Assembly (NCBI GenBank): GCA_036504445.1
Contig: DASXVE010000025.1
Location: forward strand, 248,001 to 312,000
Source of the DNA: Candidatus Aquicultor sp.
GTDB lineage: Bacteria > Actinomycetota > Aquicultoria > Aquicultorales > Aquicultoraceae
Reading direction: 5' to 3'
DNA: 64,000 nt
Part shown: positions 6,351 to 13,599 of the stretch, in pieces
Layout: the number at the start of each line of letters is the position of its first letter
How positions within the stretch are numbered: position 1 is the first letter of the stretch
Position numbers and translations under genes: made by a program
The notes under the pieces: model-generated
Database searches by the model: none
Told to the model about the DNA's origin: nothing
Seen by the model: the letters and a program-made list of their open reading frames with translations, nothing else

Positions 6351-7562
6351 ATGAGCGTGCTAAACTTGAACAAACTTTACGAGCAAATAGCAGCACTCGG
6401 CTCGTACCAGCGCAACCGGGCGCAGAGCTTGGCGTCGGCCCTGCATGCCGCCGAAGATCAGGTTGGCCTTGCCTCTGCGGATGTTGTGGCTTTCAAGAGA
6501 AAGATTGAAAATGCAAAGACCTCGTGGCTGGTCGCCGAATTAACCGATGAAAACCCGTTTGAGGTGCATTCCCCTCTTCCCCGTCCGGAAACATATACCG
6601 TATTGTCGACGGACGGCTCGCAGATAAGCCCCGACCGGCACGGCCCAACGCCTGCCTTCCTTATTAATATTGGGAGCGTCGAGATAGGCTACGGCGGGTT
6701 CCATGGTTACCGGTTAGATAGCGAACCAACGTTATTTTTTGAAGAGAAGGATACGATTCGTCGATTCGGCGGTAAAGAGCGCGATGTGTCCGGCCCTGTG
6801 CTCGCAGCACTCCGACAGAAAATGGAAGTAGAAGTCTTAGGGGATATGATCTCCTCGTGTGAGAACAAGCCGGCGGTCGCTCTGGTCGATGGTACGCTGA
6901 TACTCTGGATGCTTGAGACCGACCCCAAAAGTATCACCAGTTTAGGAACCGCTGATCTCAAACAACAATCGTTCCTCGCTTTTATGCAGCTTATAAATAC
7001 GGCGTGCGACAGTGCGCTTCCTGTCGCCGGATACATCAGTTTGCCGGGAAGCGCCGATGTGATAAATGCACTAAAAGTGCATATTTGTCCGATCGAGCCG
7101 GTTAACTGCGACAGATGCCCCTACAAGGGCTCTGTCCTTGATGAATATCCCCCTTGTGATAAGATAAATGGGATTACCGACGCAGCTTTGTTTCGCCGTT
7201 TACTCAAACCGGGTGAACGGTCCTCGCTTTTCGGCAGCATCTCTGACATACTGCAAGCGTATGGTGACCAGCGCGTATACTTTTTCTACGTTAACGTCGG
7301 AAAAGAAATTGCGCGGGTCGAGGTGCCGGGCTGGGTAGCGCACGATAAAGATGCGCTCATGCTTGTCCATAGCGTATGTCTCGACCAGGCGGAAAAAGGC
7401 ATGGGTTACCCGATAGCGGTTGCCGAGGCGCACGAGCAGGCTGTTGTTAAGACAACCGACAAAGCTTCATTTGAGCGTCTCGTTATGAGAGCATTAATAA
7501 AACAGGGTACTTCTGCGGCGGAGTCACGCAAAGCTATTCGTAAAAAGGGAGGCTTTATATAA
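6351..7562 (+). CDS. nurA: NurA-domain nuclease
   Basis: Predicted 5'-3' DNA nuclease that works with the HerA hexamer in double-strand-break end resection. The NurA core is seen at TVLSTDGSQISPDRHGP (about residues 83-99), whose Asp is the expected Mn-binding residue. A second conserved site is PAVALVDGTLILWMLE (about residues 172-187), and the C-terminal VAEAHEQAVVKT region bears a further acidic/His motif. Residues about 244-270 contain five cysteines (C-x6-C-x2-C pattern then a later C) that could bind a metal. At 403 residues it is within the family range. The next gene starts directly after its stop, and three more repair genes follow in the same operon. Confidence 0.88.
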   Translation: MSVLNLNKLYEQIAALGSYQRNRAQSLASALHAAEDQVGLASADVVAFKRKIENAKTSWLVAELTDENPFEVHSPLPRPETYTVLSTDGSQISPDRHGPTPAFLINIGSVEIGYGGFHGYRLDSEPTLFFEEKDTIRRFGGKERDVSGPVLAALRQKMEVEVLGDMISSCENKPAVALVDGTLILWMLETDPKSITSLGTADLKQQSFLAFMQLINTACDSALPVAGYISLPGSADVINALKVHICPIEPVNCDRCPYKGSVLDEYPPCDKINGITDAALFRRLLKPGERSSLFGSISDILQAYGDQRVYFFYVNVGKEIARVEVPGWVAHDKDALMLVHSVCLDQAEKGMGYPIAVAEAHEQAVVKTTDKASFERLVMRALIKQGTSAAESRKAIRKKGGFI

Positions 7563-8141
7563 ATGGCCGATCGGATCGGGGAAATTATCGAGGTCTATAC
7601 GACCAGATTTAGAGCACAAAGCGACTCCCTTACCAACCCGCCGTATTTCGGCAGCTTCGTAAAGGCGGAAAGCCAGGGCACGGATATTTACGGGCTCGTC
7701 TATAACGTATATGAGACCAGCATTGATCCGGGCAGGCGCCCGATGGCGTACGGTATCCCACGCGATGAGCTGCTGCGGTACCGCCCTGAGATCGCCGAGT
7801 TTTTAACGGTCGAGTTCGAGGCGGCGATCATCGGCTTTAACGATGGTTTTACGAGGGCATATTTGCCGCCGTTCCCGCCGCGAATTCACAGCTTCGTCTA
7901 CCCCTGCGAGAAAAATGAAGTACTCGATCTCACCGAAGACCTGGAGTTTATCCGCAGCATCAATGCCCTGCCGGGCTTGCCGCTCGAAGAACTGGCCGCC
8001 GCATCGATTCGCCTGGCGTATAACGAGCGTGACTGCGACCAGGCATTTTTAGTGCGTGCCGGGCAAGAGATCGCGCAGCTCTTAAAAGACGAATACGAGA
8101 AGGCGCGAAGCATAATCAGGAGAATCAGCGATGTCAGATAA
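7563..8141 (+). CDS. HAS-barrel-like protein, HerA/NurA accessory (unnamed)
   Basis: A 192-residue cytoplasmic protein not known to me by name. The N-terminal part (residues about 3-65) reads IGEIIEVYTTRFRAQ, GSFVKAESQGTDIYGLVYNV and SIDPGRRPMAYG. This is the pattern of the HAS beta-barrel found at the N-terminus of HerA and of ATP-synthase alpha/beta subunits. The rest is a mixed region with a Pro-rich loop, PPFPPRIHSFVYPC, and a helical C-terminus. There is no ATPase domain. ATG 7563 directly follows the nurA stop behind GGGAGG, and herA overlaps its end by 11 bases, so the three are translated together. A structural adaptor or a second barrel ring for HerA is inferred, not shown. Confidence 0.75.
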   Translation: MADRIGEIIEVYTTRFRAQSDSLTNPPYFGSFVKAESQGTDIYGLVYNVYETSIDPGRRPMAYGIPRDELLRYRPEIAEFLTVEFEAAIIGFNDGFTRAYLPPFPPRIHSFVYPCEKNEVLDLTEDLEFIRSINALPGLPLEELAAASIRLAYNERDCDQAFLVRAGQEIAQLLKDEYEKARSIIRRISDVR

Positions 8142-9768
8142 GAGACAAAGAATCGCAAGCATAATCGGCGGCTCGCTTCTTGCCGGGCTCGAGGCGAAGC
8201 TCGCCGAAGACATAAACGTCGAGGGGATATCGGTCGGAAGGCTCGTCGTTATCGACGGCAAACAGAACAAGTTCTTTTGTCTTCTCAAAGACGTATCGCT
8301 TGAGGCGACAAATGAGGATATTCTGCTTAACCCGCCGCATGGCGAGTTTGCGCAGCTCGTGCATGCCGGCATTAATACTTTTTACAAGCTCTCGGTACAG
8401 CCGATGTTGGTGACGGCGCAAGACCCGGCGGAAGATGACCGGCCGCGTCCCTCAACCACGGTGCCGCCGCACTTCTCCCCCGTCTGTGAAGCCGGGGCCG
8501 AAGACGTCGCACTCATTTTCGGCGAACCAAGCCCGACCAACCCGGAGATCGGCTCCCCGATCTTTATGGATGTGCCGGTCTGTCTCAATCTTGATAAATT
8601 CGTAAAACGAACGAGCGCCATATTCGGCAAGAGCGGCTCAGGCAAGAGCGTGCTCGCCCGCATGGTACTCGGGCATTTGATACAAAGCGATATGGCGATC
8701 AATCTGGTCTTCGACATGCACGGTGAGTACGGCTGGAGCGCGACCAGTGAGTCCGGTATCGACGACCCGAGCTTGAAGCAGCTTCTGGGCGGTAAAATCG
8801 CGATTTTTACCGTAGATGCGAACTCACCGCTGTATCGGCGCATCCGCCCGGACTACGATGTGCAAATCCCCTACTCGGTGATTGAGATCGCCGATCTGGA
8901 ACTTGCCGCCAGTGAGCTGGGCATAACGACTGCCGGTATCGAAACGATGTACCGGCTTGCCGACCGGTGGGGCGAAGACAAGTGGCTCGCCCGTTTTATA
9001 AAAATGGATACCGAAGAATTCCCGGACGTCGTGGAGAGTACCGGCGTGCACGAAGGGGCGCTGCAAAAGCTGCACCGGTGCTTAAGCCGTTTGAAGAAAC
9101 TGCCCTTTATTAAAGAGAGCGTGGCCGACGATACGGTCGAGCGCATCATGAACGAGATACAAGCCGGAAGGCACACGGTACTGCAATTCGGCCGCTATAA
9201 CTCGATGCTCGCCTATATCTTAGTCGCAAATATTATAACGCGCCGGCTTCATAAGCTGTATGTCGACACAACCGACCTTGCGCGCGCCGAAGGCGCCGAC
9301 GGGCCGAAACCGCTCATCGTAACAATTGAAGAAGCACACAAGTTCCTCGACCCGTCCGTTGCCCGCCAGACGATTTTCGGAACGGTCGCCCGTGAGATGC
9401 GCAAATACAATATGGTGTTGTTATTGATCGATCAGCGCCCCAGCGGCATCGACGACGAGGTGTTAAGCCAGGTCGGTACACGTATCGTCGGCGATTTAGG
9501 CGACGAGCGCGACATAAACGCCGTGTTAACCGGTCTTCCCAGCCAGAGCACGTTGAAAGTGCTGATAAACAACTTAGAAGCCCGGCAGTTTTTGCTCACC
9601 GGTTATGCCATGCCGATGCCGGTGGTCATCGACGCAAAAGATTACGGAGACTTCTGCCGGGAGCTTTCACTCGGCTCCGGCATAATTTTAGATGAAATCG
9701 AGCGGCGAAAGTCGGTCGACGATCTTAAATCGAAGGTGTTTGGCGATGACGAAATTGTCTTCGACTAA
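8131..9768 (+). CDS. herA: HerA bipolar DNA translocase (FtsK/HerA ATPase)
   Basis: Hexameric ATP-driven DNA pump that, with NurA, resects DNA ends for recombination. An N-terminal HAS barrel (residues about 5-100) is followed by a linker. Walker A GKSGSGKS is at residues 166-173, with DMHGEYGW soon after. Walker B is in LIVTIEEAHKFLDPS (about residue 395), and the sensor/arginine-finger region is DQRPSGIDDEVLSQVGTRIV. At 545 residues it is typical. The start is ATG 8131 after AGGAG, inside the end of the HAS-barrel gene; its own end overlaps the Mre11 gene. DUF87/HerA of phage-defence systems is an alternative family role, but the linkage to NurA, Mre11 and Rad50 supports repair. Confidence 0.92.
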   Translation: MSDKRQRIASIIGGSLLAGLEAKLAEDINVEGISVGRLVVIDGKQNKFFCLLKDVSLEATNEDILLNPPHGEFAQLVHAGINTFYKLSVQPMLVTAQDPAEDDRPRPSTTVPPHFSPVCEAGAEDVALIFGEPSPTNPEIGSPIFMDVPVCLNLDKFVKRTSAIFGKSGSGKSVLARMVLGHLIQSDMAINLVFDMHGEYGWSATSESGIDDPSLKQLLGGKIAIFTVDANSPLYRRIRPDYDVQIPYSVIEIADLELAASELGITTAGIETMYRLADRWGEDKWLARFIKMDTEEFPDVVESTGVHEGALQKLHRCLSRLKKLPFIKESVADDTVERIMNEIQAGRHTVLQFGRYNSMLAYILVANIITRRLHKLYVDTTDLARAEGADGPKPLIVTIEEAHKFLDPSVARQTIFGTVAREMRKYNMVLLLIDQRPSGIDDEVLSQVGTRIVGDLGDERDINAVLTGLPSQSTLKVLINNLEARQFLLTGYAMPMPVVIDAKDYGDFCRELSLGSGIILDEIERRKSVDDLKSKVFGDDEIVFD

Positions 9769-11029
9769 AGTATCTTCGATTAGAGTCATTCATTTTGCCG
9801 ACCTTCACTTGGGGATGGAAAACTACGGCCGCGTTGATGCAAAAACCGGCCTCAATCAGCGCGTCATCGATTTCTTACGCTCGCTTAATTTCCTCATCGA
9901 TAGCGCGATCGAGCGCGATGTGGCACTCGTCGTGTTTTCCGGCGACGCGTTTCGCAACCAAAAGCCGAACCCTACATTACAGCGTGAATTTGCGCGGGCA
10001 ATACGCCGTTTAACCAGGCACGATATAAAAGTATTTTTACTTGTTGGCAACCATGACCTGCCCAATCTCGATAAGCAAGCGCACTCGATGGCGATTTACG
10101 ACGTGCTCGATATCGACGGCGTATACGTCGCCCGCTCACCCGAAGTGTTCTTGATTGAAACAAAGCAGGGGCCCGTTCAGGTTGCGGCGCTCCCCCACTT
10201 TTCGCGAAGCAAACTTATCGCAAGCATTAAAGATACGCATCCTGAGTATAAAAACAAAACACTCACCGAGTTAAACGACCTCATGGTGCTGATGATCGAA
10301 AACTTTGTAGCCGATCTCGCCGCACAGGTTGCGGAAAAGCCGGATGTACCTGCCATTCTGGCAACGCATGCCAGCATATCAACCGCAAAAATCGGCAATG
10401 AGGGGCGCAGTATTCTCATGGGAAGCGAGATGACGGTGCTCCCGAGCACGCTGCAGCGGCCCGAATTCGATTACGTGGCGATGGGCCATATCCATAAATT
10501 TCAGGATTTGAGCAACGGCGCATACCCGCACCTGGTGTATTCGGGAAGCATCGATAGGGTGGATTTTGGCGAGGAGCGCGAAGACAAGGGCTTTTGCCTG
10601 GTGCGCCTGGTACGAAGAGCGACCACATATGAATTCATGCCTACACCTGCACGGCGCTTTGTTACGATTGATGTCGAGTGTGCGACCGACGACCCGACCG
10701 CAGAGGTGTGCAAGCGTCTTGAAGGCGAAACGCTTGCCGAAAGCGTAGTGCGCGTGCGTGTGAAGGTGCCCGCGCAGCTTAAGGATCAGATCCGCAAGGA
10801 TGAGATCATCGGCGCACTCGCAGACGCCCACTATGTCGCCCACGTAACGGTTGAAGCGATCGGTGAAGCGGCGCGCGTGAGAAACCCGCACCTGACCGAG
10901 TCGCAAACCCCGGGGCGGGCGCTTGCCGAATTTTTAAAGACACGCGATGATTTGCGCGAACGCCAAGATGAACTCTTGCAATACGGGCAAAGGCTCATCG
11001 AAGAGCTGCAAGCGCGAGGTTTGAATTGA
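9746..11029 (+). CDS. sbcD: Mre11/SbcD-type exonuclease
   Basis: Mn-dependent 3'-5' exonuclease and endonuclease subunit of the Mre11-Rad50 complex, opening blocked or hairpin DNA ends. Phosphoesterase motifs are in order: VIHFADLHLG (motif I, about residue 15), FSGDAF (II), VGNHDLP (III, about residue 101), ATHASI (IV) and MGHIHKFQ (V). A capping domain fills the C-terminal 150 residues. ATG 9746 is chosen: it follows AAGGTG, whereas the longer frame reaches back into herA. The gene overlaps herA by 23 bases and its TGA overlaps the TTG start of rad50 (TTGA), so coupling with Rad50 is tight. Confidence 0.92.
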   Translation: MTKLSSTKVSSIRVIHFADLHLGMENYGRVDAKTGLNQRVIDFLRSLNFLIDSAIERDVALVVFSGDAFRNQKPNPTLQREFARAIRRLTRHDIKVFLLVGNHDLPNLDKQAHSMAIYDVLDIDGVYVARSPEVFLIETKQGPVQVAALPHFSRSKLIASIKDTHPEYKNKTLTELNDLMVLMIENFVADLAAQVAEKPDVPAILATHASISTAKIGNEGRSILMGSEMTVLPSTLQRPEFDYVAMGHIHKFQDLSNGAYPHLVYSGSIDRVDFGEEREDKGFCLVRLVRRATTYEFMPTPARRFVTIDVECATDDPTAEVCKRLEGETLAESVVRVRVKVPAQLKDQIRKDEIIGALADAHYVAHVTVEAIGEAARVRNPHLTESQTPGRALAEFLKTRDDLRERQDELLQYGQRLIEELQARGLN

Positions 11030-13599
11030 TTCCAGTCGAGTTGAATCTTACTAATTTTATGAGCTATAAACGTATGGATGAGCCGCTGAGCTTCTCATCC
11101 ATACATACTGCGGTGCTCTGCGGGCCTAACGGCCACGGCAAGAGTTCATTGCTCGATGCCATCACCTGGGCGACCTGGGGCCGGGCCCGCGGCGTCGATA
11201 AACGCGGTACCGGTACCGATGACCTCATCCACCACAAAGAGGCGCACATGCAGGTCGAGTTTACCTTTGATCTTGAGGGCCAGCGCTACCGGGTTATCCG
11301 TTCGCGCTCACGCAAAGGCAAAACCGGCCAGTCGCGCCTCGAGTTTCAAGTATTCGATAACGGCGTACCGCGCTCATTGACAGGCGAAACAATCAACGCG
11401 ACGCAAGATGCAATAAACCGCGCGCTCAGAATGGATTACGAAACCTTCGTCAACTCGGCGTTCGTCGTGCAAGGGCGGGCGGATACTTTTATGACGAAAA
11501 GCGCAAACGAGCGCAAAGAAATCCTCTCTGAAATTCTCGGCCTCTCTATCTACGATGAGCTTGAAGAGCTGGCGCGGGAAAAACGTAAGGGACAAAATGA
11601 CAGCGTTAAGGATATCGATAATCGAATCGCTTTCATTGACCAGGAATTGGATCAGCTCCCGGCATACAAGCAAGAACTCGAGGTGGTTTCCGCCGAACTT
11701 TCCGGTATACAAAGCGATATTGCGTCGTGCGAAACAGCCCTGACGCAGCTTCACGGTAAAAAAGCCGTCTTTGGCCTAAAGTCATCGCAGCTAAGCGGGC
11801 TTAAAGAGGAAAATGCACGGATCGAGTTAGACGTCAAAACGCTCGACATGCAGCTTATTGCTCTTAATGAGAGCGTACGGAAAGCGCAGTCGCTTATCGA
11901 GCGTGAGGGTGAAATCAGCGCGGGTTACGATGAGCTTGTGGGGCTGCGCGCCCGCGAGGAGAAGCTGGCTTCCGCCGGCCAGCAGTACGGCGCGCTTGAG
12001 GCCAAGGCAAACTTGGTAAAAACAGCGCTCGCCACGATAAAGAGTACGCTCGACGCAGAGCTCAAACACTTAACGTCGCGCAAAACGGCGCTTGAAAAAG
12101 AGTGTGCGCAAAAAGCCATGCTTGAGGCCGAGCTCGCCGCAAACAAAGCGGGATTAGCGCAGTTTGCTCAGATAGAACGCGAGCTTGAAGAAAAACGCGC
12201 GGCGTACACCGAACTGCAGCAAAAAAAGGCGGCGGCCGAGGCAACGGCTCAAGCCCTCGCGGCACATTACGCTGAAGAGGCGCAGCGCCGCAGCCTCTTC
12301 AGCGATGGCGATTCGTGTCCGCTATGCAAGAAGCCGCTTGATCAAAAAGAGCGAACGGCGCTTGCCGCCGATATGTCCCAAGCCGCCGCAAAGATTGCGA
12401 ACGAGCGTGAGGCCGCACAGCGCGAGATCGAACGAATAACCAGGGATCTTGAAGCCCTAAAAGCAGCCGGCACCGCGCTGAGCGAAAAGGCTCGGGGAAA
12501 GAGCGGCCTGCAAGTAAAAGAAGGCCGTCTCGTGGAGAAATTGCAGGCGCTTGAGAAAGCAGCGCAGGAAATCAGCGCAATTAATAATAAGCTAACCGAG
12601 CTTAACTTGCAAATCACGCAGCAGGCATATGCGCAAGCCGAGCACTCGGAATTACAGCGGTTGGGTTTAGAGATGCGAGCTACCGGTTATTCAGTTGATG
12701 CGCACAATAAGGTGAAAGTGCGGCTCAAGGAGCTGCTTATCTACGAATCGCTGCGGGCAAACCTCGAAAACGCAAAAACCGCCATGCAGATGACGCAGGT
12801 CACCATCGGCACGCTCTCATCACAAAAAGAGTCAAAACTCACGACAATCGCCGTCTCGGCCCAAAAGATTGTATCTCTTGAGCAGGATATCGCCGCATTG
12901 GCGGGTATCGTCCGCGAGATCGAGCAGCGCGAAGCCGAGCTTGCGGACACAAAGAAACTCGAAGCAGCCGTATTGCAAAAATGTTCCGCAATCCAGGCAA
13001 AGATAGACACATGCACCGCGCTTACCAAACGAAAGAAGGATCTGGTTAAGACGCGCAAAGCTGCCGCAAAAGAGGCCGAAATATACGACCGGCTTGCGTT
13101 CGCCTTCAGCAAGAAAGGCATTCAGGCTCTTATCATCGAAAACACGATCCCCGAAATTGAAGAAGAGGCTAACGAGCTTCTGCACCGGCTTACCGACGGG
13201 CAGATGAGCCTGCGGTTCGTAACACAAAAAGACCAGCGAACCGGTGGGGTTATCGAGACTCTCGACCTCATTATCACCGACGGCGAACTGGGCGAACGTA
13301 AATACGAGCTCTTCTCCGGCGGCGAAGCGTTCAGGATTAACTTTGCTGTTCGCATCGCCCTGTCGAAACTCTTGTCGCGCCGCTCCGGCGCCCGCCTTGA
13401 AACCCTGGTTGTCGATGAAGGCTTCGGCACACAGGATGAAGAGGGAAAGGAGCGCCTCATTGAGGCGATAAGCGCTATTCAAGACGACTTCAAGAAGATA
13501 ATTATCGTGACGCACCTTGACGACCTTAAAGAACTCTTCCCTACCCGTATCGAGGTCGTGAAGAAACGCGGGCTCGGCTCGGTTGCCACAATAGCTTGA
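11026..13599 (+). CDS. sbcC: Rad50/SbcC-type SMC-like ATPase
   Basis: ATP-gated partner of Mre11 that bridges and positions DNA ends. The 857-residue protein has Walker A GPNGHGKSSLLD (about residue 33) and then long coiled coils. The zinc hook C431-P-L-C434 (within CPLCKKPL) sits at the midpoint. After the returning coiled coil come the signature ELFSGGEAFRINFAVRIAL and Walker B LETLVVDEGFGTQDEEG. The length is close to archaeal and Thermotoga Rad50 and shorter than E. coli SbcC. The start TTG 11026 is six bases after GAGG and overlaps the sbcD stop. Last gene of the five-gene resection operon. Confidence 0.93.
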   Translation: MIPVELNLTNFMSYKRMDEPLSFSSIHTAVLCGPNGHGKSSLLDAITWATWGRARGVDKRGTGTDDLIHHKEAHMQVEFTFDLEGQRYRVIRSRSRKGKTGQSRLEFQVFDNGVPRSLTGETINATQDAINRALRMDYETFVNSAFVVQGRADTFMTKSANERKEILSEILGLSIYDELEELAREKRKGQNDSVKDIDNRIAFIDQELDQLPAYKQELEVVSAELSGIQSDIASCETALTQLHGKKAVFGLKSSQLSGLKEENARIELDVKTLDMQLIALNESVRKAQSLIEREGEISAGYDELVGLRAREEKLASAGQQYGALEAKANLVKTALATIKSTLDAELKHLTSRKTALEKECAQKAMLEAELAANKAGLAQFAQIERELEEKRAAYTELQQKKAAAEATAQALAAHYAEEAQRRSLFSDGDSCPLCKKPLDQKERTALAADMSQAAAKIANEREAAQREIERITRDLEALKAAGTALSEKARGKSGLQVKEGRLVEKLQALEKAAQEISAINNKLTELNLQITQQAYAQAEHSELQRLGLEMRATGYSVDAHNKVKVRLKELLIYESLRANLENAKTAMQMTQVTIGTLSSQKESKLTTIAVSAQKIVSLEQDIAALAGIVREIEQREAELADTKKLEAAVLQKCSAIQAKIDTCTALTKRKKDLVKTRKAAAKEAEIYDRLAFAFSKKGIQALIIENTIPEIEEEANELLHRLTDGQMSLRFVTQKDQRTGGVIETLDLIITDGELGERKYELFSGGEAFRINFAVRIALSKLLSRRSGARLETLVVDEGFGTQDEEGKERLIEAISAIQDDFKKIIIVTHLDDLKELFPTRIEVVKKRGLGSVATIA

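Follow-up and report, generated by a model that had tools for sequence, protein, structure and literature searches.

Within a 64,000-nucleotide stretch of a Candidatus Aquicultor genome (contig DASXVE010000025.1, positions 248,001 to 312,000; hereafter the window), five open reading frames (ORFs) lie head to tail on the + strand between positions 6351 and 13599, encoding the nuclease NurA, a small HAS-barrel protein, the translocase HerA, Mre11/SbcD and Rad50/SbcC. These genes probably constitute a chromosomal, vertically kept operon for the processing of DNA ends—one that belongs to a bacterial lineage and works beside AddAB. The gene content and order, intact motifs, folds, co-occurrence and trees behind this reading are directly established. 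The host, whose genome of 2.57 Mb is rated 100% complete, belongs to the Ca. Aquicultor family of Actinomycetota; a genome of that family, G072, contains a contig identical to one from Ca. Aquicultor secundus (L033 and L042, reverse complements of each other).

The five genes and their products

A first-pass annotation of this stretch had proposed a single translational unit, and every junction bears this out with either a zero gap or an overlap. The TAA of nurA (6351..7562, 403 amino acids), the first gene of the operon, abuts the ATG of the HAS gene (7563..8141, 192 amino acids) at 7562/7563; the latter shares 11 nucleotides (8131-8141) with herA (8131..9768, 545 amino acids). The mre11 ORF (9692..11029, 445 amino acids) opens at 9692 within herA, the likelier start, judged from relatives and sequence, being a TTG at 9740 or an ATG at 9746, and a 4-nucleotide overlap (11026-11029) joins it to rad50 (11026..13599, 857 amino acids, TTG start). 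A GGGGG run sits directly 5′ of the nurA ATG, and promoter and terminator scans returned signals no more frequent than in shuffled sequence.

The identities that the annotation had assigned to the five products likewise stand, backed by Pfam and NCBIfam matches, predicted folds and motifs. HerA, a hexameric-type DNA translocase, matched Pfam DUF87/HerA at 3.4e-27 (over the gathering score) and Sso HerA (4d2i) at 1.5e-18; its Walker A (GKSGSGKS) and Walker B (VTIEEAH) motifs are intact and its N-terminal part aligns with the barrel region of DUF4297-HerA, the makeup of a RecA-type hexameric ATPase with a HAS barrel. Mre11 exceeded the thresholds of both Pfam Metallophos (7.7e-14) and TIGR00619 sbcd (3.2e-35), with its phosphoesterase motifs intact. 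Rad50 matched Pfam AAA_23 at 4.5e-23, over the gathering score, and TIGR00618 sbcc at 1e-75, yet under the cut-off, and retains Walker A, the zinc-hook CPLC, the signature and Walker B, so that the catalytic and zinc-hook motifs of an Mre11-Rad50/SbcCD pair are all present.

NurA scored 5.6e-28 against Pfam NurA, over the gathering score, and the eight best PDB matches of its AlphaFold model (pLDDT 90.2) are solved NurA chains (Sso, Pfu, Dra). With D88, E159, D180, Y353 and H361 of the active site retained, it is an RNase H-like nuclease whose metal-site residues are conserved. Profiles of NurA and of the HAS protein found no match among PDB sequences, and both were therefore assigned by fold. 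NurA also carries four conserved cysteines (C246, C253, C256 and C269; codons of residues 246-269 at 7086..7157, + strand), a set complete in 57 of 65 distinct relatives, which judging by sequence is likely a zinc or iron-sulphur site.

The HAS protein matched Pfam HAS-barrel at 4.8e-4, under the gathering score; of 40 relatives, 19 matched the family at E<=0.01. Its AlphaFold model is confident (pLDDT 94.3), and all 50 listed PDB matches are HerA chains, led by Sso HerA (1.4e-7) and including TdpA, a HerA-family ATPase. It is thus a free-standing protein related to the N-terminal barrel of HerA; its C-terminal part is helical and it has no ATPase. Since HerA has a barrel region of its own, the system holds two HAS barrels. 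Conservation across phyla and the confident fold rule out a chance ORF. The HAS gene adjoins NurA in every NurA-HAS-HerA locus seen, and does so in 10 of the 20 genomes where NurA is remote from HerA; in the cyanobacterial and melainabacterial loci examined (L232, L236, L240-L242, L247-L249), it was not seen beside NurA. The protein thus appears to belong with NurA and is most likely part of a NurA-HerA assembly. The simplest guess makes it an adaptor linking NurA to HerA, because in Deinococcus NurA docks on the HAS-barrel ring of HerA (PMC9960219). A stand-alone HAS protein is not a subunit of the HerA-NurA systems described in the papers cited here.

Gene order, distribution and trees

Throughout the host family, the five genes stand together wherever the contig permits, genus g3 excepted, and the same arrangement occurs in a second family of the taxonomic order (L043/L164), in family f15 and in family f11, where an insert separates HerA from Mre11. 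Shared by four families of the phylum, the order is not due to chance. Linkage of HerA and Mre11 was further seen in two Chloroflexi loci (L044, L049) and in one that is unclassified (L099).

Beyond the phylum, a scan in which each species was represented by a single genome returned at least 572 relatives of the window HerA, of which 80 were kept. The scan patterns (FDMH[NG]EY, DQRPSGID) mostly miss archaeal HerA, and the scan by itself is no proof that archaea lack this type. The 80 relatives span about eight bacterial phyla—among them Chloroflexota, Cyanobacteriota with Melainabacteria, Gemmatimonadota, Latescibacterota, Armatimonadota, Dadabacteria/Thermodesulfobacteriota and Zixiibacteriota—and many of their loci hold the NurA-HAS-HerA trio. 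NurA was present in 48 of 50 genomes with window-type HerA, and a matching, mostly unlinked Mre11 in 49; all 50 had been picked for carrying this HerA, and the proportion has no baseline for Mre11 of this type in the same phyla. Twenty-six of the 50, counted by eye, also encode a PDDEXK domain in an ORF of at least 850 amino acids (AddA/AddB/RecB-like). In short downstream flanks, twelve window-type Mre11 genes were without a detectable Rad50 (L178, L180, L181, L186-L190, L192, L193, L195, L199), apparently mostly in Chloroflexota; Rad50 adjoins this Mre11 in other phyla.

Within the phylum, 198 genomes fell into 15 with both HerA and Mre11, none with HerA only, one with Mre11 only and 182 with neither, at well-separated scores (HerA at least 285 bits, next 114; Mre11 at least 432 bits, next 116). 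Fisher's test gave p 1e-21 for this co-occurrence, uncorrected for relatedness; its true weight is much smaller, most of these genomes being close relatives, and the spread of the HerA-Mre11 pairing over phyla is the stronger argument.

Trees cover the HerA and Mre11 of the operon, with archaeal rows that are few, taken from the PDB, partial and long-branched. In the Mre11 tree, a branch at 90/90 splits the window type from Pyrococcus, Methanocaldococcus, Thermotoga and a second, archaeal-like operon type of the host class (see below); the five-gene Actinomycetota are grouped at 97/89, with both unlinked families inside. The HerA tree shows the corresponding split at 98 and joins the five-gene Actinomycetota rows in one clade (99), the SIR2 and DUF4297 HerA types being placed outside the window type. 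Both trees largely track host phyla. So far as these sequences can tell, they speak against a recent archaeal transfer, without settling deep ancestry, and mark the operon as an old, widespread bacterial version and not a recent archaeal gift.

Function in a host with AddAB

The host encodes AddB (986 amino acids) and AddA (1179 amino acids), each with a PDDEXK domain over the cut-off; the AddA and AddB equivalog models matched at 9e-110 and 5e-56, both under the curated cut-offs. RecD2 and PcrA models were over the cut-off, and ORFs reading as RecN and RecF are present. The genes that the first-pass annotation had wished to see searched for were thus found as AddAB and RecF, along with RecN and RecD2, and the replacement of RecBCD/AddAB that it had implied is ruled out. 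Its picture of bacterial SbcCD as separate from any HerA-NurA proved wrong for this host: in genome-wide searches the operon's mre11 is the only SbcD and its rad50 the top AAA_23 match, the others being SMC-, RecN-, RecF-, OLD-like or ABC-type, so that the operon supplies the only SbcCD pair. With AddAB present and the sole SbcCD inside it, the operon therefore adds to AddAB and provides the host's SbcCD.

The biochemical steps, the complex and the HAS role are ones that we infer. Mre11-Rad50 would recognise blocked or broken ends and open them by endonuclease and 3′-5′ exonuclease action; a HerA ring would then translocate on the duplex and feed a NurA dimer, which may degrade the 5′ strand (or both strands) to yield a recombination substrate. 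The HAS protein could sit between NurA and the barrel ring of HerA, serving as adaptor or second barrel, or could regulate docking as a clamp, and the whole machine may operate beside AddAB, perhaps on ends closed to AddAB.

The role in break processing that had been proposed from the outset is likely on the sequence evidence. We favour repair because of the vertical inheritance, the housekeeping context—GH57, glycosyltransferase, Hsp20, aminotransferase, LysR-type substrate-binding protein, phosphofructokinase (PFK), aldolase and Hsp33 genes flank the operon—the link between Mre11 and HerA, and the archaeal precedent, in which Mre11 binds HerA (PMC2288612). Several points weigh on the other side. 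The host has AddAB to begin with. Genus g3 of the host family has no Rad50 next to Mre11 (L169, L170, L028), and families f3 and f58 of the class keep Mre11-Rad50 without adjacent HerA, HAS or NurA (L161:9685-13630, L162, L163, L165:9712-13604). With hhalign, no profile link emerged between the HAS protein and the barrel that HerA itself carries; it is Pfam and Foldseek that support calling the protein a barrel, and only gene pairing and fold that speak for its putative adaptor role. Moreover, a resection role of HerA-NurA is disputed, the Thermococcus complex mostly cutting both strands (PMC12977600), and deletions in Deinococcus and Thermus had mild or even improving effects (PMC9960219). 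Because published work disagrees on whether HerA-NurA resects ends (PMC12977600), our confidence in the function is moderate.

The strongest competitor, in our judgement unlikely, is an antiviral system in which HerA-NurA, aided by Mre11-Rad50, breaks down incoming linear duplex DNA. Thermococcus HerA-NurA may act otherwise than in resection, and an action against viruses has been proposed for it (PMC12977600); SIR2-HerA and DUF4297-HerA families have been shown to have such a role, and degradation of unprotected duplex ends would suit repair and defence alike. PADLOC HerA models matched the window HerA weakly (best 1e-29), but no PADLOC model matched NurA, HAS or Mre11; window-type HerA was absent from the phage records searched, and plasmid matches to it reached no higher than 28% identity, which together disfavour defence. 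The anti-phage systems likewise couple a HerA ATPase to an effector; here, however, the effector is NurA with Mre11-Rad50, neither SIR2 nor DUF4297 is present, and the HerA has a separate tree position. Neither a defence-type effector partner nor a defence-island or mobile context was found for the operon, which is conserved in the host family in housekeeping surroundings and whose trees, unlike those of typical defence genes, track phyla. Of the recBCD-type genes and defence-type HerA that the first-pass annotation had taken as jointly counting against its reading, the former are represented by AddAB, and the HerA stands apart from the defence types; the phage defence that it had named as an alternative is without positive support and less likely than repair.

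Less probable again is that two independent units are involved, NurA-HAS-HerA serving, for example, chromosome handling or fork processing while Mre11-Rad50 does a different job, with their neighbourhood in Actinomycetota reflecting co-regulation only. HerA and Mre11 are indeed unlinked in most genomes, and the two families of the class named above hold Mre11-Rad50 without the trio adjoining. Yet window-type HerA and Mre11 co-occur even if unlinked, the genes overlap translationally in the window, linkage is repeated in separate lineages (L099, L044, L049) and the second operon type has the same order.

Known HerA-NurA systems and a second operon type

The nurA-herA-mre11-rad50 cluster of Sulfolobus, Pyrococcus and Thermococcus brings together the same four functions and shares with the window operon the NurA fold, a HerA with HAS barrel, Mre11 and a zinc-hook Rad50; the window operon differs in its bacterial-lineage HerA and Mre11, the extra HAS protein, the NurA cysteines and the host AddAB. 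The first-pass annotation had left room for archaeal ancestry unless this gene order was common in the phylum and trees placed the genes within it, which is largely what we found, in four families and for HerA and Mre11. Acquisition of the entire operon from archaea by horizontal transfer, as the literature proposes for the herA-nurA of Deinococcus-Thermus, is highly improbable: the gene set is the same and the order partly the same in thermophilic archaea (PMC12977600, PMC2288612), and an archaeal-like operon exists in other families of the host class, but HerA and Mre11 lie inside bacterial clades, across supported branches (Mre11 90/90, HerA 98) from the archaeal and second-type rows, few as the archaeal rows are, and the closest PDB relative of Mre11 is Thermotoga SbcD (60.7 bits) ahead of Methanocaldococcus Mre11 (48 bits).

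HerA-NurA has been described in bacteria as confined to a few groups without RecBCD, such as Deinococcus-Thermus, which likely gained it from archaea; D. radiodurans also lacks Mre11-Rad50 (PMC9960219, PMC12977600). In contrast, we find HerA-NurA in many phyla. The Deinococcus-Thermus pair resembles that of the window in being bacterial and in having a HerA with HAS barrel, whereas the window operon includes Mre11-Rad50. Deinococcus HerA (7wrw, 7wrx) was not among the sequence matches of the window HerA at E 0.001 and hence represents a distant lineage. Compared with bacterial SbcCD, the window pair passes the SbcD model and has SbcD as its nearest PDB relative, but its Mre11 forms a distinct clade that accompanies this HerA. 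One genome of the class (G060) has both Mre11 types, the window type and a separate SbcD-like gene (L166:4205-5359).

We tentatively suggest, at somewhat less than even confidence, that bacteria hold an ancient end-processing class of their own, made up of a NurA with four cysteines, a HAS adaptor as obligatory third subunit, HerA and a dedicated Mre11-Rad50, which would occur in many phyla, frequently alongside AddAB, and differ from both the archaeal and the Deinococcus versions. The presence of HerA-NurA in many phyla, together with a dedicated Mre11, provides bacteria in which to test whether HerA-NurA resects ends with Mre11-Rad50, an open question, and points to an uncharacterised third subunit (HAS) and a putative metal site in NurA.

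The second operon type, an archaeal-like NurA-HerA-Mre11-Rad50 operon, was seen in other families of the host class (L167:3150-9597, L168:2234-8491). It matches the window operon in order and functions but has no intervening HAS protein, and its HerA and Mre11 are of another lineage, the Mre11 being nearest to that of Methanocaldococcus (92 bits). The four-cysteine motif is absent from both of its NurA proteins examined, and the NurA of L167 had no match by sequence in the PDB. One class thus holds the same gene order in two divergent lineages, and distant HerA and Mre11 genes of this second kind are adjacent in further families (L217-L226).

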